This document shows positions 11,801 to 40,869 of a stretch of DNA of 64,000 nt, piece after piece. The stretch comes from Marchantia polymorpha subsp. ruderalis (Eukaryota > Streptophyta > Marchantiopsida > Marchantiales > Marchantiaceae). The DNA is taken from positions 10,250,001-10,314,000 of the forward strand of contig AP031357.1 in the NCBI GenBank assembly GCA_037833965.1, in the 5' to 3' direction. The notes below the pieces were generated by a model. That model made no database searches and was not told where the DNA came from. It saw nothing but the letters and a program-made list of their open reading frames with translations. How positions within the stretch are numbered: position 1 is the stretch's first letter; each line of letters opens with the position of its first letter. The position numbers and the translations under genes were made by a program.

Positions 11801-11801
11801 C

Positions 11802-11935: not shown

Positions 11936-11946
11936 AACCCTGATCC

Positions 11947-15300: not shown

Positions 15301-15379
15301 AATCTATTGTGCTAACACCGATATAGAAGAAAGATATATTGGATTGAGAGTTGAAAAAGCGAGAGGTTACTGTAACACT

Positions 15380-17670: not shown

Positions 17671-18322
17671 TACGCTGTTAGGATAATAACTCCTGTCTGC
17701 TGACAGCTCGCCCACTGCTACCTCCTCCAGCCCAGTAGGAAAGGTCGAAGAAAATCCCTGAAGTTGTGAACTTTTCAGTTCCGGAAAGGGTCATCAAGGC
17801 CAAGCTCATCGAGAAGAGGAGGCTGTGAGTACCCGAGTCGAGTCGAAAGTTTGAAGAGTCCAAAATTCTGTACTCCCAAAAATTGATACATATACACGAA
17901 GGAATGTCAGCCCAGCATGATCTGGAAAGTGATCCCGGCTTCATTCCGTGCCTGCCTTGGAAGCAATGAAGCGATTATAGAACATGCCACTTATAAATAG
18001 ATCAATCAATGTAGATCGCACTCGTGACGGTGTGTCGCACAAATGCTCTTCACGGGATTGAAGAAATGGCAAAGGTATAAAGTGCCTTTGTCAAGAACTC
18101 GCTTGGATCCGCCAATGACGTCGAGGATATAGATGCAAACGTTTAATGATCAATGCATATGATCAGGAAACACGGTCTGCTACTGAGGATGGTCGGAAGA
18201 GTTTGCTCGATCGAAGGGAAGTTGCAGCGTGAAGAATCGTCCGTCCGTAAAACACAATATTTGCCAAATCCCAAATCTCTCACGGATAAAAAACAGAATG
18301 TCCAATGCTCTGAGGAGCAAGT

Positions 18323-19987: not shown

Positions 19988-20336
19988 TCCGCCCGATCTC
20001 TCCCCGCCCCTGCGGTGTCGCGGCGCGATGAATCCCGGGCCAATCCTCTGATTCTGCTTCCAAGGCACTAATATTTGACTTTGCAGAGCCGAAACCCTGA
20101 CGAGGAGGTCTGCTTCCTAATCGGACCGACCTGGCGCCTTGGTCCGGCGACCCACACACAAAGCGCACATTGCTCCGAGCTGCGGAGCTTATCAGCTTAT
20201 TCGATCGGGGCGCCGGCGAGAAAATTTCTCTCGATCCATACTTATACGGAGCGGCCGACCCAAGGCGATTTCTGAGAGCCTCAGCTCCAGGAAATCGAGC
20301 CATCTCATCTCGCTCTTGCGATATATCTCAAATTAA

Positions 20337-20526
20337 CTAACGAGCTTGCCTTTTCTTCTAAGTCATCGACGATCCGATCCTCTGCGCGAGCATAATTCTG
20401 TCCTTATTCATCCGCAGAGAGAATTCAGACCTGGCGCGACTGCGCTATTGCATCGTGTACGAGTTCGCTTCGGTGTCCCGCATCTTGCACTTGATTGGGA
20501 ACCACTTGCGGGCCGCAAGTGGTTGC
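20337..20526. repeat. short dispersed repeat, copy b, ending in a palindrome
   Basis: Second copy of the repeat at 11,802. Unlike copies a and c it has an extra piece, and at 20,500-20,524 a perfect palindrome with arms AACCACTTGCGG and CCGCAAGTGGTT around a single G. Confidence 0.75.
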
Positions 20527-20619
20527 CGATCTCGATCTGGTGTCGCTCCAGCAAAAGGTGCTCGTCATTTGATCCTCGACGAATCAAAGCACGGTCGCAC
20601 AGTCACACTTGGCAATCGT

Positions 20620-20874
20620 TGACTTTTTTTTTGTTTTTTTCAGTCTGCTTGCGCCTAGCAGCCCTCAGACTTGCTTCGACCTCATTGTGCTGAATGCCGC
20701 CCCAAGTCAGTGTTTTTCGGTTCCGGGAGCACTTTCAGTCCAACTTCAATGAGTGTTGTCCATCTGTCATGACATTGTCCGACGACTGATTCCCTATTCG
20801 TCCAAACTGCACGAGTGGATTCCATGTTCATGAAACCTCCGCTCCAGACGGGGAGGAGTGCTACTCTTGGACAT
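20620..20874. other. junction spacer between units 1 and 2
   Basis: About 255 bp with no match to the corresponding junction of units 2 and 3 (60,341-60,480). It begins with a T-rich tract. No gene seen. Confidence 0.6.
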
Positions 20875-22811
20875 TGTGGTCGTGTTACAAGCTCGTAACA
20901 GCTCGTCGACTGTGACTGTGCATTGATTTGTTCGGGCATTTCGCTTTCGATTTTGGTGTTTCGATTCTGTGATCTATGATACCGCTGTTCGCTTGCATGC
21001 ACGAATAATGACCCAGCGTCAGACAAATCTGATATTCGTGTTCAAGAGCTGTTCTGATCAGGGAGTGCCACCCTGAAGATGTATTTTATGTTCACACGAC
21101 TCGGCAGAATCGTGTGAAGGAAAGAACGCGAATCATCAATTATCAACAAAAACTTCCCCAGAGGAAGAAGAATCCTCGAGGACAGATGCCGACGGTAGAT
21201 GGTCAACGCAGACACAGAACAGTTGGACGGAATTCCGAAACTATCGCCTAAACACAAGAAAACTCGCGAATCGAATCTCGTTCGTGTCAAGTTTGGGTCC
21301 CACGTAGAGTAGGTAGGGACCGTCTTATCGATGGGGGGCTTCAACTTTCGAATCGTGTCCCTCCGGACACGTGAATGGCTAGACGTCGTTCGTCCGAAAT
21401 GATGCTCTGACCCAGATCAAAGCATGCTCAAAGCACTTCTCTGGCATGGAATTCGCAAAATCTGATGGTCATCATCAGTACGTGATCGAGTTTCGAAAAT
21501 TTCAGCACAGCCAAATGCAAGAGAATCTCACGTGACTTTCAGACAGAAACAATGTGGTGTGGTTCGACCTCAGGCCACCATGAACGAAGACCAGGTCTAT
21601 CTACCTTGAACAAGCTCTCAAAACCTTGCGATCGGTCGGAACTCCGGAACTCCACATCGCCACATCCAGTCGCAAATCATGTGAGATGCAGACTCAGGCG
21701 TGTGCTCTCACCGAGCAGCCGTTTCAGAGTGGACATAGTTTCGCCGCATTCGACAAACACTTTGAGCTTCCGCATTTCCCTGAATGAGGATTTTGGGATA
21801 TGGAAAAGCAGAGGCTCATAATAGCAGCTGAGCAGAGGAGCACCATACAAGAAGCCGCACATGCACCTTTCGGCCTTCCACTTTCCTCACATGCAATGTG
21901 GAAGAGGTATGCTCACGACCTTGCATCTCTTACTGACATCTGCATTTCATTTTCTGTTTTCCAGAAATCAATATGAATATTAACATACATATATAGATCT
22001 GTCTGTGTTTGTGCATGTATGGTATTCTCACGGAACAGTTGCGAGGAAATCAATGACGCTAAATACGTGGGATTGGACCTTGCTCCTGAGGTTTAACCCC
22101 ATATTTTTCTGAGTCTTTGTGAACGGTAATATGTTTTAAACGGCGGCCCTAAGAATGGAAACCTCAAACGTACACAAAGGAAACATGCATAGTTAGCAAC
22201 TGGACGATGGTAGGTCCGAAAGTCAGATATGCAACAGATGCAGCTGGACAAGGAGCATGCTTCATTCTGAAGGAAGAAGAAGAGGGCGAAGAAAAGCAGA
22301 AGGGGAAAAAGTGGAGGCTTTGTCTCCTTGGCTGACAATCCGGTTATACTGGACCTGTCAGCTCGAGGGGATGGCAAATTGGGCACCAAGTCAGATTGTG
22401 GAGATATGCAACTTCACCTCAGCAATTTTCACGGCTTTGTCTGCAAATGGAATATATCCGTGCTCGTCCTTTCCCCCTCTGTGTCAACACATTTCGCAGG
22501 GAAATATCGTCACCTCCTCTTGGGCATGCTCGGTTTCATCTCGGGTCTTCAACAATCAGCCGCAATCTGCACACTCGAGTATAGCAAAAAGGATGAGGAG
22601 CCCCCACCCAGCTCTCCTCGAGAGACAAAAGCTAAGGGGTTGGCTGGGGCTGGACCCAAATGTCACAAACCCCCACTACCAAATTCATCTAAAAGCTTTT
22701 GAGCACTTGTATTGGTATTCTGATCATATGTTGGTCATGTATTAGCCACCACAATGATATTTGGATTTGTTTACAAGATTTTTATAAACTATTTTCTATT
22801 TACACTTTCAT
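20875..22811. repeat. X2: left part of tandem duplication, copy 2 (interrupted)
   Basis: Collinear with X1 from 2,631 and with X3 from 60,481. It resembles X3 more than X1. Homology stops abruptly at about 22,811 within TTTACACTTT. In X1 and X3 the block continues for about 0.8 kb more up to the X/Y boundary. In unit 2 that part is absent and replaced by the 21.4 kb retroelement-rich region. Confidence 0.88.
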
Positions 22812-24640
22812 GTAGTTTTTGGTTTTACTAAAAATAGTAGTCGCTTAGGGTTTCAGTTCGTAGGGTATAGCGTCGAAGGAGACTCGAAGAAGACGTCAAT
22901 TCTTCGAGTCGAGCCTAGCGCGTTGGGAGTAGTGCCCGTGAGTGTCAGATCTGGAATCTCCGAGTGTGGAGTGGGTTGGGCTTGACTTTGTTTGTGTCGG
23001 TGACGGTTTTGTTTCCAGTAGGGTAATAAGAATGACGGGAATTCCAGTGGGGAATGTCTTGTACTTTTCACTCGAAGAACTCATTGACGTTCGGGTTTAG
23101 TTAGAAGCTCAGGCGAGTTTTTGATTGTTTACAGTAATTTGAAGTCCTGGTGATTTTGATTGGTGATTTCGATCTTGTTTGTGGTAATCTCGACTAGAGA
23201 TTTGAAGTGTATTGATTTTCAGCGGGGCTCAATCCTGCAAGGTTTGTTCTGAAGAGTCTAGGGTTTGAGGTCACACTCGGGCCCGTTTCTTCAGCCTGAA
23301 AAATCATTCGTGTCGAGTTTGAATTTCACATGCCATATCTTTGTTGTCTTGCAAGTGGTGCATGCTTCTTTCTTGGCGAATACGATTACAGAAGCTAAAG
23401 AAATCTCCGTGCATGGCTACCATTGTGTGAGCATAGATCGTTGACAGTGAACTTTGAATCGATTGGAGCTTGGCTGAGCTCTGGTGACAAGGAGAGAGGC
23501 CGGCGGGTGAAGGAAGATTCAACTGAGTAGAAAGCAAAGATCATGGGTTTGTAGGCCGCTGGTCTTGTGTTACGGAGAGACGTGAATTTCTCTCGGTCTT
23601 TGGGGTAGCAGTTCTTCTGCAATGGCAATGAAAGAGGAGTTTGTGGTTTGCTCCAGGCACATGTAGGGTACGGTTAGAACATTGCTTTGGAAAGGAGACT
23701 GCCAGGGCTGGAGAATGGCCTTAAGTGACAGCATATGTTGCGAGCAAACTGTACGCTTGCGTTAGAAAAGCAACAAGGTATGACTCAAGTGGAGTGAAGG
23801 TTTTCTTATGCCGGCTTTTACGAACCAGGATTGCCACTTCGGGGAAATTAGGTTGAAGCTTTACAGAAACTCTAAGTGAAGTTTTTCCGAAACTTACTGT
23901 GGGTTCGAAAACCAGGGTCATCTTCCATCAACTCAAGCTTACGTGGATTTCTTTTCCGAGTCTCGAAGACCTGCTCTAAGTTATTCACCTCGAGAAATGT
24001 GTCCAAATGACTGAACCTCTCTCTCTGTGTACCATCTGAGGTCGAAGTCTATCAGCTGCGGAGTGTGCCGAGAGTAGTCTTCCTGAACGGAATATGCATG
24101 AGTAGGACCCACGGAGTCCCATGATGAATACATGTACCGAGAGAAGTCCGTTCCAGTATGAAGTGAAGCTACGCCGAAGTAGAGTATGATCGATAATGTG
24201 TTGCGAGAGAGTTTACAACGGTGACTATTGGTCACTGGTGCTAGTAAATGTAGGGTGAAAAGTTACTTAAGACGGTTTGCAATCCTCCGAAACAACAATT
24301 TCAGCATTACATTCTCCACCTCATACGCATTAGTTGGTAGCTGAGGACATGAGTATTGCTTTTACTATCTACGGCCGAGCTAAACTCATCGCTGCAACAG
24401 ACGTATAAGAGAAGAATAACCGGATCAGAAGAGGGCTAAGTTTGTGAGGATCAAAATTTTGATTACAGGAAGATAGACTATAGTGGAGCATTTCAGGTTT
24501 GAAGGAGAGCAGAAGACTGGTAACCTTGTGATAGCTCAGGTTTTTTGTTTTATCGGAATTAGAATAGAAGGTTGGGAAATTGCGGTCGGTTTTAACCTTT
24601 GAAAGTAGAAGTAATTAGATTAGAGTAGAATAGCAACGTA
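22812..24640. other. start of the 21.4 kb insertion, no gene recognised
   Basis: Moderately AT-rich sequence without repeats shared elsewhere in the window and with only short frames. It could be the untranslated leader or LTR of the element that carries the coiled-coil frames downstream, but no second copy was found to show this. Confidence 0.4.
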
Positions 24641-24749
24641 ACGGGCTAGATGAGGTAGTGGTAGTACTCAGGAGGGAACCTCAGACGTTGCGTTGGCCCT
24701 CAAGAGGGCGGTTATGTCCGAACCTGTGAGAACAAAAGAAGAACTACCT

Positions 24750-24779
24750 CACTTGAGTACCCAGACAGGTACTCAAGTG
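24750..24779. repeat. 12-bp-arm hairpin upstream of element copy A
   Basis: Perfect arms CACTTGAGTACC and GGTACTCAAGTG around CAGACA. It lies about 55 bp before the first open stretch of the element, so it may be part of its leader. Confidence 0.8.
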
Positions 24780-24804
24780 GGGAAAGGGTACTCAACCAGA
24801 GTAC

Positions 24805-27236
24805 GTGAGGACATCGAAGCTTCAGGGTCACAAAGGGGTGACGGGTACCGGATATGTTAAAGATAGTGCCGACCGGGAAAGAATTCGAATGGCGGCACCT
24901 TCAATTCGCACGCATGGGAGATTGTTGCGACGGCGGGGAGTACCCAAGGAGTCTGGTGCTCGTCGCTCGCATTTCACGAACACATTGAGACATCGACGCG
25001 GGATAGAGGCGCGCGGACGAGAAGAGCGAGAATTAGCGATGGCGCGGCCGATCAAACTCCACGCTCTACGAGTGATCGAGGTTGGCTTACGAGCTTATCG
25101 TCGTGATTTGATGCTCGTGAAGATGGAGTTCTTATTGTGAGGATGGAATTGGACAAGCAACGCAATCATACAAGAATGGGACAACAATGGATTGCCGAAA
25201 CCGCCGGGTTACAAAGGCCATCCTGACACCTGGGAAATCTGGGACTGGAAGAAGGTCTGGGGACGAAGTGCAGGTGACGACGGCGATCTCACATTCGATG
25301 CCGAGAGTGTGCGAGTGACGAGAGAAGAGGAGAGAGCTTACGTTGACCTGTTCAAGCATCCCCACACTGGGAAGAACGGGTACCGCACAGTGTGGTATCA
25401 AGATCGAATGCGGCGGAACATCGCGATGGCTTTGATGCAAATCCTTCAGCCGCAGCGACCCATCTACATGATGACTTGGCAGGTGGGGTTTATCGAGAGA
25501 GCTTTGGGCGGAGATCGTATTCATTGGGCGCGGATTTTCTGGACTGTAACCTAACAGCACATTGGGCTATTCGCTGGAGTGTCGCCTAGTTACTTATCCC
25601 TGTTTTTGATCAATTTCTATCGAGCCATGAACTTGTTGACTGCTGAAGAGAGCTAAGCGTTCCAGATGCGGAATGTTGAGCAGGAAGGAGAGTAGGTAGT
25701 GTTAGCCAACGAGGTCAATTTGGACCTAGAAGGCAAACCACGGAGTTCTCCTCAGCAGGGGAGGAAGCGACCTCGAGGTCGGCAGGACTCCTAGCCAAGA
25801 AAGAAGCGTCGAATTGACGAGGCTGCAGTAGAAAAGGAGCGATTACAACGCACCGCCCTCATCACGATGCAAACACCCGACTTTAGGGCCCGGTTGAAGA
25901 TGAAGGCCAAGAGATTGGTCATAGACGACGATAGAAGTCTTGAGAGTAGAAGTACAGTCCTAGTCAAGAAGCACAATCAGTGGAGAAAACGGCTAGGGGA
26001 AAGGATGAACCAATCAGGAAGAAGCCATGCTCTGAAAAAGGCCGGCCGACCTTTGTCAAGAAGTCGCAGGCTTCAAGGAGAGATAAAGGGAAAGTCATTT
26101 TGATTGAGTACGTTCCCTTAAAGCGGAGAGATGTTCATGTGGAAAGAACCTAGCGGAAGGGACCTCGGGACGAGGCCGCTGAGGTCTTAACGGTGTCCTC
26201 AGATACTAAGGAGGACCCAATGGCGTTAGAAGAAGCCGCGGCGAAGGCCGTGGAAGACGTGGCAGCAGCCGAGAGTGAACCGCAGAAGGTGACATCACCT
26301 CGGACCTCCACGGACATCATCATATTGGAGAAGGGTGAGGAACCCTCAGCGGGAGAGACATAGTCGGCAGCCTTGGGTGCCGTCGATGTGTTGAGTGTGC
26401 AGGTGCTACCGTTGCTTCAGTACCTCAACCGGAAGCGGGAGAAGTACGCAGAGGGCAACCCCACTGAATCCTACGTGGAGATAATGCGCAACCGGACGCG
26501 AGTTAAGCGAGAACTGGCTGTTGAGGTCACTGCTAAGGAACGAAGAAGTCAGCCGACAGAAGTGAAGTACCAGGCACTTCAAAGGAAGCTGACTGAGGAA
26601 GTTGAGAAGCGACGGAAGGCAGAGCAAGCCGGTGACAGTCTTCGTGAGGATGTGGAGAGAGCTAAGTGCGCCAACGTAGACCTTTTGAAGAGATTAGAAG
26701 CCTGCAGAACCGCATACGACGTTGAGTCCTCAAAGGTAGATGAATTGCAGGCTACCGCGGAGGAAGCAAAGCGAGATTACCAGACCGAGTTGGCGGTAAA
26801 GACGAAGAAGATATCCGAGTATGAAGCTGCGCGGATTGCAGATTTGGAGTTAATTGAGAAATTGAAGACGGAGTGTGGCGAGTTCAGGACGCAACGATCG
26901 CAAGCTGAAGAGCAATTATGCGAGGTGGAGGCGAAATTGATGGAGGCCGAAGGGAAGAATCGGCCGTTATCGAAAGAGACGCGTGAAGCCTTAACTGCGC
27001 GCGTGGAGCGATGTTTGCGCGGGTACACGTTGTGGCAGATCAAATCTCACAACGGGCTTCGGTTACGTGAAATTGAACATCGTGCTGCTGAGTGGATCAA
27101 GAGGAGCGGACGCAAGCACCGTCGGCTATCCAAGAAGCTAGGATCGTATCTTACCAGATCGCGCGACGTGGTAGCAAAGTTAGAAGTAGAATTAGTAGGC
27201 GTTTTGCAAAGATTAGGTTTAGAGCTGTGGTAACCC
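24805..27236 (+). mobile_element. unclassified retroelement-like coding region, copy A (broken)
   Basis: Several open stretches on the plus strand match those of copy B (28,413-31,516) in the same order, so the two are paralogues of one multi-kilobase coding region. The first part (about 24,800-25,660) encodes a Trp/Arg-rich globular region with boxes KNGYRT, RRNIAMA, LQP and HWARI. A low-complexity charged linker follows. The last part (about 26,370-27,233) is a long heptad-type coiled coil with many Glu/Lys/Arg/Ala, ending in a basic tail with CLRGYTLWQ. No reverse transcriptase, protease or integrase is visible. It lies in a nest of LTR elements and is probably an element-encoded accessory or Gag-like protein. 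Broken in several places; family not assigned. Confidence 0.5.
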
Positions 27237-27419
27237 ACTTTTGGTATTTTTGCAAAATTTAAAACATTTTTGGAAAACTGTACCGCAGCAGCAGTGTATA
27301 TAGCGATCGGTACATTTAAATAGAGTGAAACTGGAGAATCTCGTAGAATCCAAGAGTTGGGCGCAATGTCCGGAACAGGCGCCGCTCTGAACGATGGGCT
27401 CTGAAGTAGTTCCCCTTCG

Positions 27420-28260
27420 GCGCAAGGCGCATAATCCGCCTTCGGCGGTACGCCTTCGGCGCTAGAGGAATCCCTCAGAATCTATGCAATTCCCGAAGCC
27501 TTGACTTGGTTAGGGTTTCGTTGGAAAGAGCTTGACGCGCTAGTTCTAACGAGCCTAGGAACGGATCAGGACTCAGGGAGTTGTGACGGTCGAAAGATAC
27601 GAAGACTTTTGCCTACGCATAGGCGAAATGGGTTTGACGTCGGCAGGGAGTCTGCCGAGAATGCCGCCTACGCATAGGCGGGAGGACTTGCACCTACGCA
27701 TAGGCGGACGGAAATCGCCTACGCATAGGCACTTTGTCGTCGGCGGGAAATCCGCCTTCGGCCCTAGAAATCCGCCTTCGGGGTTGGAACTTGTACGGCG
27801 CCTTCGGCGCCAGCGCATCACGGTTAGGTGAGGACCCAACGGAGTAGCGAATCCGTACGGACCGTACGGACGGAACGGACGAGTGCGCCTTCGGCCGGTC
27901 GGGATTTCGGAGACAAGAGCGGTGACGGAGAGGCGAGAGAGTTGGACAGACTGGACAGAGTCCGTTGACTGCGGTCAACGCCTTCGGCGCTGCGCCTACG
28001 GCGAGGGACCTACGCGGACGAGCGTCTTGTGTGCGGACGGATTTGGCCTACGCATAGGCGAGCGCCTAAGCATAGGCGGATGGAGTTCGACGCCGGCGGA
28101 AACTCCGCCGGGAATTCCGCCTACGAGAAGGGAGTTCGGCTTTTGTCCTGTGCGCGGACGAACGACTTCGGCGGAGCGGGACTAGCCGAGTCAAAGTACG
28201 GATGAGTGTAGCGCGTCGGCGAGAAATATGCCTTCGGCGCTGCGCGACCATGGCTGCGGC
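27420..28260. repeat. palindrome swarm, left cluster
   Basis: GC-rich spacer between element copies A and B, studded with two hairpin types. Type 1 has the core GCCTACGCATAGGC (27,611; 27,665; 27,692; 27,716; 28,046; variant 28,062). Type 2 has GCCTTCGGC, often as GCGCCTTCGGCGC (for example about 27,440, 27,452, 27,770, 27,800, 27,890, 27,980, 28,230). Each is a perfect or near-perfect inverted repeat. Flanks between hairpins are not repeated, so this is a set of short dispersed palindromes and not a tandem satellite. Confidence 0.85.
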
Positions 28261-28412
28261 GTGGTACGCTGGCGCAGTTCAAATTGCCAATTCGAGCGTG
28301 TGAGTGAAGGCGCGTCGGCGGAGCGTGAAGCCGCGCGTGAGAGAGAAGGCCGTTATACCTCCGAGCCGTCGCAGCCATCAAGTGATTCGACTTTCACGAC
28401 CGAGAGCCGACC

Positions 28413-31400
28413 ATGACACCCTGCGAGCGAACAGAGGACACCTCATTCTTGAATTTGCGATTTCAATTCCTTGTGCGAGCTGCGCGCGTCCACCTTCTAG
28501 AAGAGAGACGTTCTAGACACCACCGCGCAAAGAGTTACCCGGTGGCAGAGAGAGAATTGAGTGCGCGACATTTGAAATTGAGAGAGATTAGAGTTTGCAG
28601 AGGAAACAGAACCGCGAGCAAGAGGCTTGAGCATAGCACAGAGAGAGGTGCGCAAATCAATTTCAAGAACGCGATGTCGACATCGGTTAAGCTGCGGATG
28701 GTTCCACTCAAGCTCCCGCAGAATGGGTTGCGTGCTTTTCAGGACCGGCTGATCGCGAGGAAACTTGATTTCTTGCTGTGGGGATGGAATTACGTGTGCG
28801 CAGACATGGTGCGCGAATGGCTGGACGAGGAACGGCAACCTACGCGCGGATTCCGTCCGCACGTAGATCGATGGACTTTCCACGATTGGGTACAAGCATT
28901 GGGAAGGTGTGCAGGCGAGGACGGGTACCTTCTGTTCGACAGTGAGAGCGTCAAGGTAACGAAGGCGGACGAAGCCTCCTTTGTGGAATTGTTCAAGCGG
29001 GAGAGGTCCTCCAAGAACGGGTACAGGACCCGGGACTACAAAGATCGTTTCCGTAGGACCGTAGCAATGGCGGTGCTGCAACTTTTGCAGCCGCACCGCA
29101 CTACGTATATCACGTTGTGGCAGGTGTCCTTCGTGGAGCTCACTTTGGCTGGAGCTCCAGTTCACTGGTCGCGTATCCTACATAGGGTAATGCGACAGCA
29201 TGCGTTTGAGAAGCGGGGAGGTTCGCTCAATCACCTCTCCCCCTTCTTGATAAACTTTTATCGGTCGATGAATTGCTTAACCGCGGCCGAGCGTGTTTGA
29301 TTTCCGCCATTGTCAGTCGACCATCCCGGGAGGTATGTGCGGGATAACGAAGTCGACACCGACGCGGAGGATTCTCCGACTTCCACTCCACCGGCTCAAC
29401 AGGATGCGGGGAGGATAGCAGCACGAGTGCCGCGCAAGCGGAGATGGAGAGAGGAACCGGAGAAGGAGCAACAGCAAGAATCAGCTGCTCTCACCCAGAA
29501 GCGGCCACTGCACGAGATCTGCAACCGGCCGAAGCAGAAGGCGCGCAGGCTAATATTACCTGCCAGCAGCGCGGAAACGGCGACGATCGCCACGGAGGCA
29601 GGAAGTCCATCCCTTGAGAAGGGTGAGACTGCGCGGACGGTCGGAGGGTCAGTGGACCACCCTACGCCCTCGGCGGAGGTGACACAACCTTCGGGTCAGG
29701 AGCAACAACGCGCGGCACGGATGAGTGTGCCGTCTACGCATAGACGACTCCCTGTAGATAGGCGACCCCTTGCAGAAGAAGACTTTCGCCTACGCATAGG
29801 TGGAGAAAGTTCGCCTAAGCATAGGCGAGCGCCTACGCATAGGCAGGACTCACCCCCGGTGCAACGCAGGAAAGGGAAGGAGCCGGCGGATCTTCCGCCT
29901 TCGGTTCAAGGGGCTTTGGGGCAAGGCCCTTCGGCGGTGAGATCGCCGAGATATGCGCCTTCGGCGCCAGGGCCTTCGGGGCACCGAGTTACGAATGGAG
30001 AACCGGCGGGAGGCCGGAAGTGCGGAAGGTATGAAGGCCGGAAGGCCGGAAATGCGCCTTCGGCAGAAAATCCGCCGGAAGGTGCGCCTTCGGCGGAAGA
30101 GCCTTCGGGCCAAGGAACATCGGGCGGGCCGCCTTCGGCGCTGCGCCCTCGGCGGAAGAAGCGCCGGGAATTGCGCCTACGCATAGGCCGGACGCATCCC
30201 TGGCGCAGGACCTAATGGAGGAGCGGGACCGATCGGTGGAGCGGGACCTAACGGAGGAGTGGATTGACTGTCCGTAGGGTGATATTCGTGCGCGCGATGC
30301 ACAATTACACTCCGCGCAGGTACATTCCGCACGATCGCCTTCGGCGGTAGACGCCGGCGGCGAGGAGATTACAGTCGCAGCGGGACAGGCGGACGATGTG
30401 AATTCGGCACGGCCGCATTCACCCACCGCCTTGGACATTTTAGCAGGGAGCAGCGAGGCTGCAAGAGCGCCAGCGGCGGCAGAGCACGCAGACATCTCGC
30501 AGCCCCGCACAAGCCAGTCGCCGACGAATTCAATGGCGACCGAAATCCTCGAGTCGGAGGATGACGAAGAAGGAGGATCCACGGAATCGGTGTCAGGATC
30601 GGAATCCACCGAGGAGGAGGAGCAGGAAATGGTAGGCGCGCCGACGGCGGCGCTCTGTGAGCAGGTAGTACCTCTGTTGAGGTACCTAGATCGCAAGGTA
30701 TAGAAGTACGCGGACCCTCGCCAGCCTGGATCCTACGTCGAGTTAGTGCGTAGGCGAACTCGCACTAAAGTCCACACCAGCAAATTGTTGGCCCGTGTGG
30801 ACCTGGAACTTAAGGATCTGCGGGAGAGGCATGCGTGCCTGTGGGGTCAATACAACCTCAATAGGAAGTTGTACAAAGCCTTCGACAAGACGAAGGATGA
30901 GAAGCTGGAGGAGTTCGCCAAGAAGAAGGCGAAGCTCGCAGAGGAGCTGGATTCTGAGCAGGCTGAGAATCGAATTTTGTCAGAGGAGCTCGTGCAACAG
31001 ACACGGTTGTTAGAGCAGTGTCAGCTCGCACGATAGGCGGATGAGGAATTAATCCGCAGACTTCAATCCGAGTGCGGGGAATTGAGAGCGCAGCGTGCGG
31101 AGGCCAAATTGCAGTTGGTTGTTGTTGAAGACGATCGCCGGCGGGAGGCAGATCGCACGAAGGAAGAGATGGCGAGGCGAGTAACCCACTGTCTCAGGGG
31201 CTACGCCCACTGGGAAGTGGCGGCGCAGGAGAAACTCACACTGCGCGAGTTAGAGCTTCGTGCAGCGGGGTTGTTGACAGGTGACAGTCGGAGTCGGCGG
31301 CGAGTGGCGAAGAAGCTGGATTCTATCCTGTCGAGGTCGCGGGACACCATGGCCACCCTCGAGTCGGAGGTTTCCGCGGTGTTGCAGCGATTGGAACTGC

Positions 31401-31516
31401 GCAGTCGAGCTGAGGACTGGCAGGGTAGGGAGTTAGTGCGCGGCAGTCCGTCGCGCAGGAGGCGAAGCACAGGTTCTGCGGAGTGTAGTGTAGCGTGGTT
31501 CCGTGCAGGCGTGTAG
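28413..31516 (+). mobile_element. unclassified retroelement-like coding region, copy B (broken)
   Basis: The best-preserved copy of the family seen at 24,805-27,236. An ATG-started stretch of 295 codons (28,413-29,300) holds the globular region: a hydrophobic LLWGWN box, then KNGYRT, RRTVAMAVLQLLQPHR and HWSRIL. A charged, low-complexity linker (29,310-30,215) contains in-frame palindrome-derived peptides such as LRIG and PTHR. Further stretches (30,398-30,703; 30,746-31,036; 31,082-31,516) encode acidic residues, then a coiled coil, then a basic tail with CLRGYAHW and RRRVAKKL. No polymerase domain was seen. A third fragment of the same tail lies inverted at 38,254-38,487. Several breaks are present. 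I do not recognise the family. Confidence 0.5.
29727..30370. repeat. palindrome swarm, right cluster (inside copy B)
   Basis: More of the two hairpin types found at 27,420-28,260, here inside the linker of element copy B. Type 1: 29,731 (a variant with both stem sides changed), 29,787, 29,812, 29,829 and 30,174. Type 2: about 29,900, 29,930, 29,957, 30,057, 30,085, 30,130 and 30,340. Confidence 0.85.
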
Positions 31517-31519
31517 CGT

Positions 31520-32575
31520 AGTGCAATGTAGTGTTAGTTAGGACTTAGAAGGTATAAAGGAGTTCAAGGCGTCTTGCCTTGGGATTTTTCCAGTTTCGGA
31601 AGTGCAGATCAGGAACTCATTTTCTCTGCGTGTTTGTGTCCTTAGTTTTGTCACCACGCGAGAGGAGCTACACCTTAGCGATCCGCATTGTGTAGCTGAA
31701 GGCCTTCGGCCGAATGTTCAGAGCTAGTACATTGGTTAGAGACTTGAGTAGTTCGGATCTACACCTGCGGCTGACTGCCGATGCTCAGAGCCAGTGACGA
31801 GTTAGATACTTGAACAGTTTCCCCCTTACACTTTCGAGTGACTGTTCTTGATTGTACTCCTTCGGGATTTTCCCCTAAATGCCAAAGTGAAGTTTTGCTA
31901 CTTCGTGTAAGCCTTGGTTGTAAATTCAGGTTACGCTGCAGCAGGTGACTTCGGGGTAACCCCTGTAGTATTTCTGGGAATGACAAGTGCCTGAGAATTC
32001 AAACTCTTCAATAGACTGTTATGGTGTGTTACTGGAACGTTTCTCAGTGAGTCCTTCCGTGCGGACCTGTGTTCTCTGCGCGATTTGTGAGTTGAGAGTG
32101 TTGTTCACCGCGTGTGACTGACTTCGATCTGAAGTAGGAATTTCAACCCGGGTTCCCTACGCTAGCAGAAAGCTAGTGGAAGGGTTGTAAAAGCCGGAGT
32201 TGGGAGCCACTACCCGCAGCTTCGCTGAGTACTCTCGAGAGACTTTCCCCCTGAAATCTTGAGTGGAGGTCCTAACCGATCTCTGGGTTGTGTTTCTGTA
32301 GTTTCAGGTGTGGATGTGTGTGTGTGTTGTACGCTGCACTGTGCGACCTCCGAGTGAGCTCCGAGTGAACACTTGTAGTATTTCTGGGAGTGACAGTCGC
32401 CTGAGAATTCAAACTCCTCAATAGTTTGTTAAATGTGACACTTTGTACCCTGTGTGTTCCTCTGTCCCTGTGGATTCGACCTTTCTACCACTATATTGCA
32501 GTTTTAGCCTTTAGTGGGTTTTTACAAAAGCGGAGGTTAGAGGGGGCGGCAGCTGCCGACTCCGGAGATGTAGTG
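31520..32575 (+). repeat. LTR-like non-coding repeat, copy 1
   Basis: Follows element copy B. It has a TATA box (TATAAAG at 31,553) and a hairpin CAAGGC/GCCTTG at 31,565-31,581. Two imperfect units then end in GTATTTCTGGGAGTGAC and a CAAACTCyTCAATAG box (about 31,969 and 32,380). It closes with CCTGTGGATTCGACC, a form often seen just upstream of the end of plant Ty3/gypsy LTRs of the Athila/Tat type. That family assignment is tentative. Related to 32,576-33,185. Confidence 0.5.
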
Positions 32576-33185
32576 CCTGTTCGCTGCTTGCATCGCAGCG
32601 GGTGATAGTTTAGGGTTAGTTAGGAATAAAGTAGTCCAAGGCGTTGGCCTTGGTGGATCTTTTTTCAATTTAGTTTCTCAGTTCGGACTTCTGTGATCTC
32701 TGCGCGTTTTGTGAGTTGAGTGTGTTGTTCACCGCGTAAGAGTGACTTCGGTTTGACGAAGGTACCGCATCCAAAGTAGGAGCCCCAATTCGAATGTTCT
32801 AATTTAGCGTTTGGCTAGTCACAGGATTTAAGCAAATTCGTAATTGGCCGATAGCTACAAGTATTCTGAGTGTACGTCTTGGGAAATTTCCTCCCCTGAA
32901 TCTGAAGTTGAGGTCCTGATCAACCTCTGAGTTTTGCATTTACTTGTTTTAAGTGTGTGTGTGTGTGTGTGCGCGCGCGCTTTACGCTGCTTTGTGTGTC
33001 CTCCGAGTGACTTCCGAGTCGAACTCCTGCAGTATTTCTGGGAGTGACATTAGCCTGAGAATTCAAACTCCTCAATAGAGTGTTAAGAACGTGACAATTG
33101 GTACTCTTTGTGTTGTTTCTGTCCTCGTGGGATCGGATCTTTACCATTATGCTCCATTTTGATATTTATCTGTCATTACAAACCT
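32576..33185 (+). repeat. LTR-like non-coding repeat, copy 2
   Basis: Same order as copy 1: AATAAAG at 32,624, hairpin CCAAGGC/GCCTTGG at 32,636-32,653, the TCTCTGCGCGTTTTGTG box, the CAAACTCCTCAATAG box near 33,062, and CGTGGGATCGGATC near 33,127. It also carries the alternating GT/GC tract at 32,952-32,980. Probably a second LTR or a partial tandem copy. Confidence 0.5.
32952..32980. repeat. (GT)n(GC)n alternating purine-pyrimidine tract
   Basis: About nine GT units run directly into five GC units; such tracts can adopt Z-DNA. Confidence 0.9.
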
Positions 33186-34240
33186 TATCTTTTAATTGTT
33201 GAGGAGATCAATTCTCTAGCATTGTTTGTACCGGGCACTATTCTCGAGGTGGAGGAAGTACACTAGGTGGAAGAAAAATCAGGCAGTCATGGAAGTGTGG
33301 CTTTTCTTGGGACTTTTCGGTTGCTCATCATCGTGGTAGCAAATTAGAGAGCGGGTAAAACACATCGACATGCCAAGGGAAGCTTTTAACATCCTTGTTG
33401 TTACATATTGCTCATAACCTGCCTCGGAAGGACAAGGAAGCAAAGTCGCTCAGAAAGTTATATTCTTATTGGGACCACCACTGTTGGAAGCCACGCTTTT
33501 AGGGTAACTCATGAGGAGCCGTGAGTTTTTGAGACGAAAGTGAGTCCAGTTGACTGATGCATATCACAGTTGAGGAGTATTTGTTGGAGAGCACTCATGA
33601 ATGGCATGATAAACGAAAACAAAAATTTGTTGCAAAAATCTTGTTGGTTTAAGCTGCTGGTTGCAATCTACAAAATGAGTACAATGGAAGGCTGCCACTT
33701 ACAAGTAACAAGGCGAAGTTCTGAGAAGGGCACTCATGTAACGATGTGATCTGCAAAGAGTTGCTTTCGAGCTGTATTCTCATACAATCCTTTGGTCTAC
33801 CTGACAGTAGAGGAAAAGATATCTCTATAATACATTCTGATTAGAGTTATCATTCGCTTGAAGTACATTGAAAGTGAAGGCAAATGTAGTTAGTGAAGGC
33901 TTGAATGAAGATGAAGTTCCATAAGCTCATGTGTACGATGTTGTTCAGCTTGTGACTACCTACGATGGTAAAATACAACAATATTACCTTACAGTAGGAA
34001 GTTTTTGATTTATGCTCCTTACAAGTTACTATAGTTTTGAATTTGCTAGTCAGAGTAAACTCCTTCATAGTCAGTTTCTCAAGACTATTAAAACTTTCTG
34101 ATAGTTTTATAGTTCAACTCTTGTTAGTTCCCATTTTAGTGATTTAGTTTACACAGATACCTTGTAAACGGCCCTAGTACCCAATGAAGTTTTCAGTTTT
34201 CCCTTCACATTTAGTTTGCAGATACTGTGTAAAGAATCCT
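33186..34240. other. no gene recognised
   Basis: AT-rich, probably internal retroelement sequence worn beyond recognition. No frame above about 75 codons, and none resembles a known domain. Confidence 0.45.
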
Positions 34241-35036
34241 TGTACTGCAACCTCCGGGCTGACTCTCACTCAGGTTTACCTCAGATGGCTTTTCGGTAGC
34301 TCATCATGATTCCAGAAGACTAGGATTCCGCATCATACTCATAACCTAAACACCCTCTCACACAATCTCTCAAGGTATCACTCCAACTCATACACTCATC
34401 GACACTCCAAGGTACTGAAAATTCGTCACTCTTTCATATATGAAACAAGTCTCTACATATGAACTCTCCAAACTTGCTTGAGAGTCTCTTCCCTACCTCT
34501 ATATATATACTACTTGAGAATTTACCATAATAACAAATGGTAATTTCTATCTAACTTACTTTTACGAAGATAAACCATAGTAAGGTTGACTAGTTATCAA
34601 TATGTGGCAACATGCCATTGGCCCCCTAAACCTTCTAGATGTTTACTAATCCCTAGATTGAGGTGGCGACATACCATTTGTGTCTTTCCCACTTCTAGAA
34701 CTTCCACTTTCCACTAAGTCAACATTGGACTTAGTCTCACCAATGGAATACTCCTTACTTTAGTCAAACCAATCAAAACTAAACATGAAGTTCAAAAGTC
34801 TTTTCTCTTGGAATCTAGACTTTTGTACAAGACAAAATAGAAGTGCTCACTCAAATCTTCTAGAACTTCTCTAGTTATTCCGCCAAGTATAGACATTATA
34901 GCTAAATTAGCTAGACTTAGTCATAACTAGCTAGATTTAGTCATCACTAGCTAGATTTAGTCATCACTATCATAACCATGATTAACTTCTTGGCTAATTC
35001 TAGTTTTATTTCACATATGCAATATCTGGTCTTACA
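34241..35036 (+). mobile_element. LTR-like repeat, left member of a 0.8 kb direct pair
   Basis: About 796 bp starting TGTACTGCAA and ending GGTCTTACA, so it has TG...CA ends. A diverged copy lies in the same orientation at 42,773-43,546 (TGCCGTACTGC...GAGCTTACA). The right quarter contains repeated CTAGATTTAGTCAT units. The pair spans about 9.3 kb that includes a copia RNase H fragment next to the right copy, which suggests a Ty1/copia element that was later invaded. Old, well diverged. Confidence 0.5.
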
Positions 35037-36560
35037 GTACACAATGAAGTGTTGATGTATGAAGGGAAAGTGCCACTTGGAGAAAAAGCGGACGATAGTG
35101 ATATACTAGAAATCCAGACAGTGAAGGTCGTCAGCAGCAAGGAACGTGATCGGGAGCAGGAGGTGACGGTGCAACCTCAAGTAGAAAAGAATCCGGTGAA
35201 CACTGCTGTGGTAGAAGAAAAAAATTCGGAATTAGATTGGGAAGAGGCACTAGCCGTAGAAAAACTTCTAGAGGAATCTGGCCTATAGTATAGGATATGT
35301 GAGGATGAGTTACTATACCTTCCGAAAGATATTGCTGATCATTTGCGAGATGTACAGAATGTTCAAGACTGTCTTTCAGAAGAAATTTTTGTACTAGAGA
35401 AATTTCTTGATAGTCTTAAAAAGGATTGATAGCAAATACCTGTAGCGTTTAGAAAGGAGGCATTGAAGGTATCGGGAGTTTGCACCCAGTCTCACTGCCT
35501 TTAAACTTGATGTTTTGAAAGCATTATAAATATATATATGACGTGATCAAGAATATATTGAGCTTTCAATGTGTAGTGTGTTTGTTGAGGTGGAGTGTGA
35601 GCCAAGTGTGAAGGAGAAAAAAAAAAGAGAAAAAAAAGGTAAAAGTTTTCAAACATTTTTTGTTTGCAATTTGGTGGAAGAGGGCATCGTGGGCGCTGGA
35701 GGCCGAAGTTGATGGCGGGCAATGGAGATCAAATCGGGATTGCGAAGCGATGCGATGTCTTGTGTGTGTTGTCTTGTTTCGTGCTGTGTTTCTTTTAGAC
35801 TGGAGAGTCGTTGCTAGATGTTTGCTTGTGTTTGGATCCTCTCTAGTCTTGCTTCCTGGTGCACGCCCGTGTTGGGTGACGATGATTTCCGGAGTAGTTT
35901 TACTCCTGTGTGCTGTCGATAGGGGGCTGGACTTGATCAACGGCCGGCCTATCTATGTTTCTCTCATGATGAGATTTGAGTGATGACCAGTAGACCGTGA
36001 AAGTCTTCTTGTGGTGATGATAGGTTAGGTTGCCCATACCCCTTAGCTAGAAGGGCTAGAATAGCTTAGTGCGGCACCACGTCAGGTGTAGACAGGGTTA
36101 TTGGGTGGAGATCTAGCAGTGACGCCAGTTGAGTTTTCGTCATCACGGAGCAGTCTAGTGGTCCTGTTGAGGACTGCGGTGGATTTACGCGGAGTGGGTT
36201 GAGGTATCGGCTACCTTCATCTATCTCGCCAGTTGTTGCGAAGGAGTACCAAAGTGTTGTAGACACAAAGTCTTCGGTGGTGATATCGTCCAGTGTTCCA
36301 ACTCCATTGATTTGGGACATGGACGAGATGTACGGGGCCGTGAAGGGCCCTTGACGGTACTCTTGTGCAGTGGGCATCATCGAGTTTGATGATTTTATTC
36401 GGGAGTTTGACACGTGATGTGATATGCAGTTTCTGCGTAACCCCACGTTGTTTACACCCGTGGAAGGGGTTATTTCAGCATTTGGAGGGGCCTCCTATGG
36501 ACGATTATCATGAGTTTGGGAGAGATTATGCTGCAGAGATTGATGCATGGAGACGTCATT
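35037..36560. other. no clear gene; worn element interior
   Basis: A 79-codon acidic frame (35,049-35,288, Glu/Val/Lys-rich) follows the LTR-like repeat directly but resembles nothing I can name. The rest has short frames on both strands. A poly-A/purine tract lies at about 35,615-35,640. Confidence 0.35.
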
Positions 36561-37470
36561 GATCTCTGAACTACTTATTCATTACCCAGGGTGGTGTGGG
36601 TACCAGTGGAGGTGCGAGTATTGGCATCAATGGAGGTGTGTGTAGTAGCATCAGCGAGGGTACCAATGGAGCAGTTGGCGCAACTAGTACTAGTACCAGT
36701 AGCGTTACTATTAGCATTGTTGGTGGCAACACAAGGGGAGATGCTAGTGGCGTACCTTCGTTTAGCCCCATTCGTGAGTTCTTCCAGAGGTTGAGGAAGA
36801 ACTATCAGGGGGTGAAGACAGAGAAGTTGAGGAGACTCCAGGAGTTCGAGCGGAAGACTTGTGAGAGTCTTCGTGAGGCATACACTCGTATGCGACGTCT
36901 GATCTAAGTTACTCACGGTGTGACTAAAGCACAAGCTGTCCAATATTGATATCGGACTCTGGACAGAGAGTTGTGGAGGAGAGTTTGTGATGCTACTCTG
37001 ATGAGCGACGCATCACGCACATTAGCCCATGTGTTTGCTCTTTCTGAGAAGATTGAGCTTAACATGGTGGAGGAGAGGATGGTGACGTTTACATTTGCGA
37101 GGGACACAACCACTACCTCGCGTATCCCACAAAGCATAGCAAAGTCTCGCCCCATGGGTGGTGGTAGTGGAAGTCGTGGAGTTCATACACGACATCCTTC
37201 AGGTCACAGACAACCTAGTGCGCGACCATCACTACCTTCATTTTCGGGCCAGCCACAGGGACCATCATGTTGGACATGCGAAGGTGTTCATATGAAGAAG
37301 GATTGTCCTCAAGAGAAGGGGGAACAAACTTCACAGGCTAGGCCATAGCCGGCACAGATGATGTGTGATCATTGTGGTCGAGCTGGTCATTCTCGAGAGC
37401 GTTTTTTTGACCTTCATCCGGAGTTGAGATTTGGAGGTAGAGGTCGTGGCGGTGATACTTCACAAGGCTG
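36560..37470 (+). mobile_element. Gag fragment of a Ty3/gypsy-like LTR retrotransposon (fossil)
   Basis: Plus-strand open stretches at about 36,596-36,907 and 36,971-37,348 read a Gag-like order: a Gly/Thr/Ser-rich start, a helical region with SPIREFFQRLRKNY, then a basic Gly/Pro-rich tail with a CCHC zinc knuckle (CWTCEGVHMKKDC near 37,270) and a related knuckle-like motif soon after. This is the usual nucleocapsid layout of plant gypsy elements. No protease or polymerase follows; the next sequence is an unrelated inverted piece at 37,560. Broken in several places. Confidence 0.6.
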
Positions 37471-37559
37471 AGATGGTCGAGATAGTCATTCCCAGAAATT
37501 AGTCATTCCCAGAAATACTGCGGAGGCTACTCCCAAGGCGCCTCAGGCAGCATACAACC

Positions 37560-38490
37560 TGAATTGTTAACCAAGGTTTCCACGAAGTAACGAAACTTCA
37601 CTTTGGCATTCAGGGGGGAAAATCCCGAAGGAGTACAAACAGGAACAATCACCCGAAGGTGTAAGTCCGAACTGCTCAAGTATCTAACCAGTCACTAGCT
37701 CTGAACATTCGACAATCACTCCAAAGGTGAAAGTCCGAACTGCTCAAGTATCTAACCAATACACTAGCTCTGAAAATTCGACAATCACTCCAAAGGTGAA
37801 AGTCCAAACTGCTCAAGTATCTAACCAGTCACTAGCTCTGAACATTCGACAATCACTCCAAAGGTGAAAGTCCGAACTACCCAAGTATCTAACCAGTACA
37901 CTAGCTCTAAACATTCGACAATCACTCTAAAGGTGAAAGTCCGAACTGCTCAAGTATCTAACCAGTACACTAGCTTTGAACATTCGGCCGAAGGCCTTCA
38001 GCTACAAAATGCGGTAACTTCGTCAAGTTGTAGCTTCTCTTGCGCGATGACAGAACTAAAGACACAAACGCGCAGAGAAAATGAGTTCCTCAACTACACT
38101 TCCGAAACTAGAAAATCCCCAAGGCAAAACGCCTTGAACTACTTTATACCTTCTAAGTTCCAACTAACACTCTACTCTACGCTACACTCCATGTCATCTG
38201 ATATGCCTCCTGTGCATAGGACAACCGCGCACTGCGTCTCTACCAGACCAGTCCTATGCTCTACTGTGCATTTCCAGCCGCCGCAACACCGCAGTCACCT
38301 CTGCCTCGAGGTTCGCGATGGCGTCTCGCAACCTTGCCAGGAAGGCATCCAACCGCTTCGCCACTCGCCGCCGGCTCCGACTGTCACCCGACAACAAGTT
38401 CGCCGCACGGTCCTCTAACTCGCGCAAGATGATTCTCTCCTCCGCAGCCACTTCCCAGCGAGTGTAACCTCTCAGACAGCGGTTCACTCA
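37560..38490 (-). mobile_element. inverted fragment of the copy A/B element with its LTR-like end (fossil)
   Basis: On the minus strand, 38,487-38,254 encodes the basic tail of the coiled-coil family (CLRGYTRWEVAAEE, RRRVAKRLDAFL), matching copy B at about 31,190-31,410. Next come the hairpin CAAGGC/GCCTTG (38,120-38,136) and TATA box (38,142-38,148) also found after copy B, then a 68-69 bp tandem repeat. So it is an inverted piece covering the tail and downstream region of one such element. Confidence 0.7.
37665..37995. repeat. 68-69 bp tandem repeat, about five units
   Basis: Units begin GTCCGAACTGCTCAAG at 37,665, 37,733, 37,802, 37,870 and 37,939 and include CTAGCTCTGAACATTCG. The counterpart after copy B (about 31,710-31,850) has only about two diverged units in the opposite orientation. 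Confidence 0.88.
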
Positions 38491-38519
38491 ATGTTTGTCT
38501 TAAGCGCAATTTCTTAGGT

Positions 38520-38650
38520 GGTAATCGGGACTTTACATCTTAGGTTAGTAATTAGGACCATTGATGTACATATGCAAGGCGCTTACTTAAGCGCCTCGCC
38601 ACCCTGAGTGAAGCAATTCATTCTTAATATTCTATGAACATGGTATCAAA
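38520..38650 (+). mobile_element. Ty1/copia LTR 3' end with primer-binding site (fossil)
   Basis: A hairpin AGGCGCTTA/TAAGCGCCT (38,577-38,596) of the kind seen in LTR R regions is followed by TTCTATGAACA and TGGTATCA at 38,641. The last is the standard plant copia primer-binding site complementary to initiator Met-tRNA. The LTR start is not defined. Confidence 0.55.
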
Positions 38651-40869
38651 TTTGTGTTTACAATACTTCTAGCATGCACGTTTCGCAGTAGATAATTTGA
38701 TTCACACTCGTTTGGCACTAGCAGTTGTCAATGCCCTTCTACTATCTTTCCGTACCATTTAGCAGAGCTCTGCCTAATATTGTGGTGTCCCCACTCTAAC
38801 TTTTTCACGAGCTAATCATTGCCTCTTCCATGAACCAAATTCTCCACTTTTCAATTAACAAAAAGTTGACCGTGCGCGACACATATTTGAACTGGTCCAC
38901 GCGCCTTAAGACAACAAAATGTATCAAAGATTACTGCAATATAATCAAAAACATGAAAATGTGATAAATGAATATTCATCTTTATTATCCATTCCTCTAA
39001 AACTCCCATCGCTTTACTTTCTTTGTGAGCTTTCACCTTACATGACTTACCCATGTGAACAAAAGATTTGCTCGATCTTCAATCTCTTGAAGACATATCC
39101 TATTTGTCTCTGCTGCATCAATATGAATTGGTTTGGATTGAACTTGGGAAACTTGAACTTCAGGTTTAATATCTATCTCTCTAACTCTTTGTCTCTCTTC
39201 CTCCTATCACTATTCCTTTCTTACGCTCTCTCCTTCTCTTCCCTCCCCCCTAAATGATGCTTGTAATTTTCGGGCCTAAGCATATGAACCCCTGCTCTCT
39301 CGCTTTTTCAGTTGTGTGTCTAGTCAGATGGTGTGCAGGTTATGGATCTAGATGATTGCCAAAGGGTTGGATCTCCTCATCCCCCTTCGGTTGATGTTGC
39401 TTGGATTGGCTCTCGTACGGCCGTTGGTGCGTCATAGTAGTTTGCTTCCCCCGGATTTGTTGCGCCTCTGCGTCCAACTGGGGAATGATGTATGTGTATA
39501 TCACTCTTTCCGCGCGTTTTGCGTCCCAAAATGGATTCGCCTGCTGTTCATCTGCGGTATTCACTTATTCATTACTTTTTCACTTTCCAATGCAAATATT
39601 TTATCTTCCATAGCTTGTTGCTTGATATGCTCATCTGTGAGATATCAGCTTCAGTTGTTTGTCTTCTTCTTTTTAGATTATTTGTCGTTTAGTATTAGCT
39701 CGCAGATGGGTCTATATCCTATGGGCTGTGTAGGAGTTTACGGTTTTGATTCATTCTGATCTTTACCGTTTAAGGTACCGTTAGAAGTCGGGATGATATA
39801 AGGCCAGTCAGCAAACTAGAGCGGGTGGCATTACAGAGATAAGGTTTTCAAGAATAGTCGAGAGTGAAAACGGGGAGACACCTACGGGAGGGAATCAACT
39901 GTGAGGAAGTGTTAGTCTTGCTCGGGAGACAGTAGTGATTTCTCGTGTGTAGTTCTCATTAGACTGAAACCTTGTAATGGCAGATAGGAAGATCAAGTCT
40001 GAAGAAACTGATCTTGGATATATATATTCGAACTGCCTTCATTGAGGAGTTCGCGGGGAGTAGGCTTTCAAGCTGAACCTCGTCAACAAATGCTTGTGTT
40101 TCTATGGTGTGTGGACTGTGATTTTCTGTAGGTTATGGGGATTGAAATCCCTACATCATCTATTATAGCTTTTCTCAACTCTTTCATCTTTGCCATGATT
40201 GCATTAAGAATCTCATTTATATGTATTGATGTTCCCATGCTTTCTTACACTCTATCTTATACAAGGGAATGTATTATAAGTATATGACCCATCAACAAAG
40301 GAGTCATTAAAGGTATAGATGATTCTATAACTACTCTAAAATTCTTTTCTCCACAGTTTCTCACAACTCTTCTTAATCTCCTATATGTAAACAATGTTTT
40401 ATATTCTGTTTGATATACTATTCTAAACTCTACATATGTGTTGAATCAAAGTGAAGCAGGTGGTTAGTGATTCAGATCCATCAAACATTCAATATAGAAT
40501 TCATATAGGTATAATTTCATGTCTCTTCATAACTAACTATTGGAAATCTCAATGATATTTTGACTTCATCACTCTTGTCAAAAAGTTTGCACCCGAACAC
40601 ACCACAAGGTGGATCTAAAAATGATGTTTCTCTATGCAACAAAGATGAATATCGAATAGGTTTGAAATCGGCCAATGCGGTATTGAATTCCTGCCAAACA
40701 TCTCTAAATTTGCAAAAACCACAATTTTTCTTTTTCCTTCTCTTTCTAAATGCAGATCAATGAACTCTGCAAGCTTCTATACACCGTAAAAAACTACACT
40801 TCCTCATCATTCTAATATCATTGTAACATTGGGGTTTAGATAGAATCTGAATTGAAGATGAAACATAAA
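38651..40869. other. no gene recognised; probable worn copia interior
   Basis: AT-rich, T/C-rich in part. The longest frame is 135 codons (39,352-39,759), hydrophobic and unlike any family I know. Position between a copia LTR end and a copia RNase H fragment suggests decayed gag-pol DNA, but I see no domain. Confidence 0.4.

Follow-up and report, generated by a model that had tools for sequence, protein, structure and literature searches.

What are two families of short palindromes, each in many copies with unrelated DNA between them, doing inside a retroelement of a plant nuclear genome? The question is raised by a 64,000-nucleotide stretch of Marchantia polymorpha subsp. ruderalis (contig AP031357.1, positions 10,250,001 to 10,314,000, forward strand), here called the window, in which an original prediction made from the letters alone saw possible self-spreading units, transcript hairpins or protein-binding sites. 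We report that both families belong to a 5,301-bp long terminal repeat (LTR) that carries a gene of its own. Alignment of LTR copies shows the palindromes to be fixed parts of the LTR, inherited with it, running one way and flanking the N-terminal domain of the encoded protein; for the first family (A, consensus GCCT-RYGCRY-AGGC) it also shows arms that are kept between subfamilies while the inner six bases change together.

Two Palindrome Families in One LTR

Allowing up to two mismatches, the family A sequence CCTACGCATAGG gives 24 rows on both strands of the window where 2.28 are expected, and the family B sequence GCGCCTTCGGCGC gives 19 where 0.69 are expected; none of 100 shuffles reaches either count. 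The A rows fall mostly within 27612–30187 (21 of 24, at 11 sites) and the B rows at 27411–30347 on the plus strand (16 of 19). The B core CCTTCGG occurs 21 times on the plus strand and never on the minus strand of the LTR (27226–32526), versus three and eight times in the remaining 58,699 bp of the window. Clustering into two families, neither of them a satellite, within a retroelement is what had been predicted, and it is borne out; the exact place is the leader and the linker-coding part of a gene in one LTR, so that A sites lie on either side of the N-terminal domain. The genome-wide core search (241,466,482 bases, 9 contigs) agrees, with 1058 + 1108 occurrences of GCCTACGCATAGGC and none of its reversed control, and 2022 + 1907 of GCGCCTTCGGCGC compared to 306 + 334 for its control.

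Orientation and confinement to the LTR were scored, with a tolerance of 30 bp, in 31 sequences, most of them loci fetched for holding A and some of them segmental duplicates, with symmetric A cores counted on both strands. In this sample 174 of 181 A sites run in the LTR's own direction and 0 of 181 lie outside LTR homology; for family B (GCCTTCGGC) the counts are 379 in the same direction, 7 opposite and 47 outside. When 18 leaders (locus L009 and 17 of 30 listed rows) and 17 linkers (of 24 rows) are aligned, segmental duplicates, rearranged copies and copies extending past their own locus having been dropped, most palindrome sites prove common to the copies.

Conserved Arms and Shifting Cores

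Loci rich in other core variants have their sites at identical positions with different cores. In subfamily I, that of the window, nearly all A sites read ACGCAT; in subfamily II they read ACGCAC, with ACGCGT at some sites; and in subfamily III they vary, with GCGCAC or GTGCAC as the main forms. At linker site 2, for example, both II and III have ACGCGT where I has ACGCAT. Copies are few (three leaders and five linkers for II, three leaders and four linkers for III), and two intermediate copies, L010 and L017, were excluded from the subfamilies in the core, arm and deletion counts. When the majority sequences of I and II are compared, 10 of the 11 site positions have letters in II and nine of these ten differ; all nine are ACGCAT in I, and in II they are ACGCAC (five), ACGCGT (three) or ACGAGT (one). 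The arms behave otherwise. With one diverged site (window 27692) omitted, I and II disagree at 0 of 80 positions in the arms versus 247 of 1421 positions elsewhere (p 6e-7); with that site restored the figures are 5 of 87 versus 230 of 1264 (p 0.0019), and between I and III they are 1 of 85 versus 281 of 1267 (p 5e-8). Cores within one copy agree more than expected (0.44 versus 0.28 on shuffling, with 0 of 2000 shuffles as high), a statistic that is limited, as are the others on core change, by the common ancestry of all sites of a copy. Across the genome, the form GCCT-N-CGCA-N-AGGC divides by outer core pair into A-T (2166), G-C (6269), A.C (4149) and G.T (394), and the fully symmetric ACGCGT form is found at 1391 places.

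On contig C1 (5.59 Mb), all 100 exact A sites listed lie within the first 2.98 Mb, a density of ~33 per Mb versus 9 genome-wide; this contig may be a repeat-rich sex chromosome.

The Element and Its Gene

The edges of the unit, at 27225/27226 and 32526/32527, were placed by BLAST of window 20000–40000 against 20 loci, and they recur: the 5′ end in 28 rows and the 3′ end in 29, the window copy included. That copy starts with TGTGGTAACCCAC and ends with GTGGGTTTTTACA; most other copies start with TGTGGTAACCCAC and end with GTGGGTTATTACA. Exact 5-bp target duplications surround L011 (AGGTA), L012 (TTTCT) and L013 (CATAT), which together with the TG...CA ends is the signature of an LTR retrotransposon. 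A DNA transposon, suggested by the TGT...ACA inverted ends and the 5-bp duplications, was dropped as a candidate because a primer site and gag follow LTR 3′ ends. In the palindrome-bearing copy L017, the primer-site-like sequence TAAGAAGCCGACAACTTCTTTTTGGCGCCGCTGCCGGGG stands directly after the 3′ LTR end. The junction GTGGGTTATTACA-TAAGRAGCCGACAACTTC occurs exactly 1,202 times in the genome (608 + 594), including related families such as those at L020 and L029, and in L017 and L029 the LTR end and TAAGRAGCCGACAACTTC are followed by TTGGCGCCGCTGCCGGGG, as expected of a primer-binding site, which we take to match a plant tRNA. At L020, and likewise in the sister element of L029, gag with zinc knuckles lies beyond the junction; in L029 aspartic protease comes next (Pfam matches in L029: Retrotrans_gag, 1e-13; Ty3_capsid, 7e-8; Asp_protease_2, 8e-6). 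Because the junction with its primer site leads into gag, and in L029 on to protease, the 5,301-bp unit is read as an LTR. By these homologies the element that carries the palindromes is an abundant Ty3-type LTR retrotransposon, its gag and protease being read from the sister element; the subfamily of the window itself yielded neither. The window copy is probably a solo LTR, since no primer site follows it (the next sequence is AAAGCGGAGG) and its flanking 5-mers agree at four of five bases. It sits within an older related repeat, in which a 44% homologue of the LTR domain begins at 25033.

The LTR carries a gene with a conserved N-terminal domain (208–209 amino acids, open in many copies), a variable linker and a coiled-coil-like part (Table 1). 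All three follow one another in a single open frame of the sister LTR family, 869 residues long (L009 7293–9899, minus strand); another open LTR-gene frame of this family has 665 residues (L029 2887–4881). The window copy has no plus-strand open reading frame of at least 150 amino acids over the coiled-coil-like part, and weak coiled-coil-family matches were obtained solely for the related frame at 26373–27233; the coil in the LTR gene is called by eye. Pfam gave nothing above chance-level matches on the LTR gene. Because the ratio of nonsynonymous to synonymous substitution (dN/dS) in the N-terminal domain is 0.08–0.31 in all ten pairs tried, with dS 1 to 2 in distant pairs, the encoded protein is read as having been under purifying selection. 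Directly after the linker array, at window 30208–30259, is an 18-bp tandem repeat, GGACCTAACGGAGGAGCG, whose copy number varies between LTR copies.

Table 1. Positions of the LTR, its gene and the family A sites in the window
Feature	Position	Strand	Remark
Left target-site copy, AGAGC	27221..27225		4/5 identical to AAAGC at 32527–32531
Giant LTR, 5,301 bp	27226..32526	+	Same two ends recur in other copies
Leader array	27411..28250	+	A sites, B and other inverted repeats; lies between LTR start and LTR gene
A site	27611..27624	+	
A site	27666..27679	+	
A site	27692..27705	+	ACCTACGCATAGGC
A site	27717..27730	+	
A site	28046..28059	+	
A site	28064..28077	+	AAGCAT core
N-terminal domain of LTR-encoded protein	28674..29297	+	208 amino acids; aligns with 17 other copies open there
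Variable linker-coding region	29310..30215	+	Pro-Ser codons from 10 of 11 B cores, all in one frame; A sites fall in two
A site	29732..29745	+	Both arms changed, GTCTACGCATAGAC
A site	29788..29801	+	
A site	29813..29826	+	AAGCAT core
A site	29831..29844	+	
A site	30175..30188	+	
Coiled-coil-like part of LTR gene	30645..31500	+	Judged by eye; matches the equivalent stretch of L009 and L029, which are open
Right target-site copy, AAAGC	32527..32531		Pairs with AGAGC at 27221–27225

Family B and Further Inverted Repeats

Family B cores are conserved between subfamilies (7 differences in 144 positions and 16 in 150). In the sister LTR of L029 (1933–6476) there are seven B cores and no A sites; for this reason B looks older and A like a later gain. 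Other inverted repeats are found in the region as well, for instance CGGCGG-N5-CCGCCG. The majority sequence of the leader holds 13 hairpins where 4.2 are expected (the maximum of 100 resamples is 11) and that of the linker 10 where 3.9 are expected (highest, 9). Taken in 500-bp stretches, hairpins exceed the highest of 30 resamples in those starting at 27501, 29501 and 30501, and in none from 22501 to 27000. Outside the LTR, window 35501–37000 is also hairpin-rich (4, 5 and 5 in the stretches at 35501, 36001 and 36501, versus resample highs of 3, 3 and 4). At gathering scores, Rfam has nothing on the palindrome array; its match to U5 spliceosomal RNA (45.9 bits) is at window 63337–63459.

The LTR is set among other repeats. 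An inverted relative of its 3′ part (31179–31984) lies at 37502–38489, 77%–81% similar, and includes a 69-bp unit repeated five times (37645–37986). At least 13 direct-repeat pairs (D8–D20, among the best 20 of 55 families), 38.1–39.7 kb apart and 93%–98% identical, link 6931–21486 to 45046–60923, which suggests a large segmental duplication either side of the nested retroelement stretch.

Competing Explanations

Rickettsia palindromic elements and the double-hairpin elements of organelles are dispersed mini-palindromes, and two palindromes repeated many times, with unrelated DNA in between, could be taken for self-spreading units of that type. The original prediction expected such units to leave clean empty sites in some copies, and took their absence as the outcome that would speak against it; that outcome is what family I gives. 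Its copies (15 leaders, 14 linkers) have 35 deletions of at least six bases, of which 13 include an A site and 10 a B core, and none matches exactly one palindrome. Insertion of self-spreading units was rejected on this empty-site comparison within family I, and with most sites orthologous between copies, none of the sampled A sites outside LTR homology and nearly all in one orientation (in loci mostly selected for A), we regard such units as barely credible here. The deletion pattern points instead to family I arrays changing through loss by slippage between repeats and not by unit insertion, as homology of at least five bases flanks 19 of the 35, which is expected from such slippage; several of them run between two A sites. 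The same deletions fit a neutral process in which hairpins pause reverse transcriptase and template switches overwrite variants and delete units, the sites having no function. Linker site 5 suits this process too, being ACGCGT in 6 and ACGCAT in 7 of 14 copies of I and ACGCAC in 4 of 4 lettered copies of II; the move from ACGCGT alters two bases and arrives at a core that other sites also have. Mosaic LTRs, L030 among them, suit the neutral process as well. Against it, the flanks between sites keep their own sequence, which would require exchange to be confined to ~14 bp, and the arms stay fixed across subfamilies while the cores drift. Neutral homogenization would account for slippage and core replacement, and not so easily for the fixed arms; we count it a real possibility without expecting it to be right.

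The main functional rival of a recognition array is that the sites act as RNA hairpins in a transcribed leader and coding linker, in packaging, dimerization, translation control or reverse-transcription pausing. This would explain the fixed orientation of A sites, and the leader does fold better than 20 of 20 shuffles (z −5.2), compared to z −2.0 for a domain control and −2.4 for the linker (20 shuffles each); transcription of the leader is something we infer. Covariation is less favorable. In the linker alignment with three subfamilies, 12 cells are changed on both sides versus 5.4 on shuffling (0 of 500), an excess inflated by shared ancestry; among recent linker copies it is mild (7 cells versus 2.8, 5 of 500), and in the 18-row leader alignment there is none (4 cells versus 2.8, 162 of 500). 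Selection for pairing was therefore dropped as a reading of the covariation, which is stronger solely where subfamilies are mixed and ancestry confounds it. The genome-wide closing-pair states given above are associated between sides, as pairing would have it; yet A.C, the commonest imperfect core, is unpaired in sense RNA and tenfold commoner than G.U. Dimerization through kissing loops was set aside, since the self-complementarity of loops such as GTGCAC and ACGCGT is lacking in the ACGCAT of the window and in the common GCGCAC. Overall we think RNA hairpins unlikely to be the explanation. At the protein level, B units could be there to encode a Pro-Ser linker, with the leader copies as by-products, and the frame common to 10 of the 11 B cores of the window linker fits this; against it, the leader has nine B cores before the gene even starts, and linker A sites occupy two frames, which makes this account very improbable. 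Two of the interpretations in the original prediction, transcript hairpins and protein-binding sites, thus stand as candidates, and the third finds no support.

A Putative Recognition Array

Our preferred reading, which we put forward tentatively, is that family A is a putative cis-acting recognition array, in which GCCT-RYGCRY-AGGC would be read by a sequence-specific dimeric factor that controls expression or silencing of the element. The factor, probably dimeric, would bind the symmetric motif, most likely as DNA, and once bound would act on the element's own expression or silencing. Arrays would lose and gain units through slippage between neighboring sites, for which template switching in reverse transcription would do, and a core variant would come to be replaced across the sites within one subfamily. 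Recognition at the DNA level is favored because the palindromic consensus, the conserved arms, the tolerance of A.C in the core and the placement flanking the conserved domain all fit it. As the least certain step, the binding factor may be the LTR-encoded protein itself.

Several observations weigh against a recognition array or against its coupling to the LTR protein. Taken singly, the A cores of the window lack symmetry, and a dimer site has no need of a fixed orientation. Of the 12 family I sites, one cannot be aligned in II; family I is itself divided at linker site 5 as described (one of the 14 copies having another core); and family B shows no concerted shift between subfamilies. Of the eight II and III loci, six (L039–L044) were fetched for carrying variants, L026 and L030 being the others. 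The core changes speak for the array, with C-to-T at CAG between I and II in 5 of 6 core positions versus 1 of 19 in that context elsewhere (p 0.00065) and G-to-A at CpG in 3 of 3 versus 12 of 188 (p 0.0004), figures for core positions that were chosen after the table had been seen; with every CAG and CpG of the site columns counted, the effect is weaker (5 of 10 and 4 of 26). Protein and core states are not tightly matched: II and III share 93% of the N-terminal domain (L040, L043) despite their different core state, and L030 (1502–3163) is a mosaic LTR with a I-like protein domain and II-type A sites in its linker. The N-terminal domain itself has no Pfam family at E ≤1 (≤10 for the window member) and no convincing PDB match (best E 0.52), and its fold model was useless (predicted local distance difference test score, pLDDT, 39) and was not used for a fold search.

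Comparison with Known Systems

The prediction held that a nuclear plant case would be unusual, a view overtaken by the literature, as repeated palindromes have been published from the LTRs of plant Sireviruses: the LTRs of 13 elements are described as carrying an element-specific palindrome 8 to 32 times, its core being CGG-CCG in 12 of the 13, and in nine the palindrome also recurs near the env gene (PMC2829016), and in maize the palindrome regions are described as small-RNA hotspots (PMC5311732, PMC10760457). The LTR studied here likewise has at least eight copies of an element-specific short palindrome, at high copy number and near an extra gene, as in nine of the 13 Sireviruses described. 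Sireviruses are Ty1/copia elements with a TATCAGAGC primer site (PMC2829016), whereas here gag is of Ty3 type and the primer site is another. The A arms are GCCT-AGGC instead of a CGG-CCG core, although a Sirevirus-like CGGCGG-CCGCCG is present in some of the other inverted repeats; the arrays occupy the leader and the coding linker instead of standing chiefly upstream of a TATA box, and from one subfamily to another their sites change together.

VANC proteins of VANDAL transposons are described as binding short motifs arrayed in one orientation (PMC5735166; PMC10398659), with C-type and T-type variants that mark subfamilies and repeat units that diverge together (PMC5735166). As far as these accounts describe them, the likeness extends to dense one-way motifs, subfamily-specific one-letter variants, units diverging together, and an element-encoded protein that is conserved in some parts and variable in others. 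VANDALs are Mutator-like and encode VANC; here we have an LTR element whose protein has no Pfam match, in a comparison that did not align VANC sequences directly, and the motif is palindromic, lies partly in coding sequence and is bound only putatively. A VANC-like self-recognition, in which the conserved LTR protein would dimerize through its coiled-coil-like part, bind its own palindromic array on either side of its conserved domain and oppose silencing while array and protein differentiate between subfamilies, seems to us rather doubtful. Retrosat2-type elements are reported with LTRs of more than 3.2 kb and an extra ORF0 (PMC3485330), and resemble the present element, on that account, in long LTRs, a lineage-specific extra gene and LTR-borne putative cis elements in multiple copies. 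The gene of the present element sits inside its LTR. In endogenous pararetroviruses, concerted evolution of regulatory sequences by recombination has been described (PMC5491270). The Rickettsia and double-hairpin elements differ in that the copies compared here show no clean empty site, no spread outside the LTR and a single orientation. By analogy, the present array would work most like Sirevirus RM and VANC arrays, and it is a member of neither group: not a Sirevirus, because of the Ty3-type gag and the other primer site, and not a VANDAL, because of the LTR structure. In searches of the open-licence PMC literature for Marchantia LTRs, none of the papers listed concerns the array by its title or abstract opening.

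Implications

The present case places palindrome arrays of the Sirevirus sort in a Ty3-type element whose LTR itself holds a gene. The subfamilies with ACGCAT, ACGCAC and GCGCAC at the same sites form a natural series for how dispersed short sites change together, and this series makes coevolution with a binder versus homogenization by template switching directly testable. If the binder is encoded by the element, anti-silencing of the VANC type would have emerged in another class of transposons as well.

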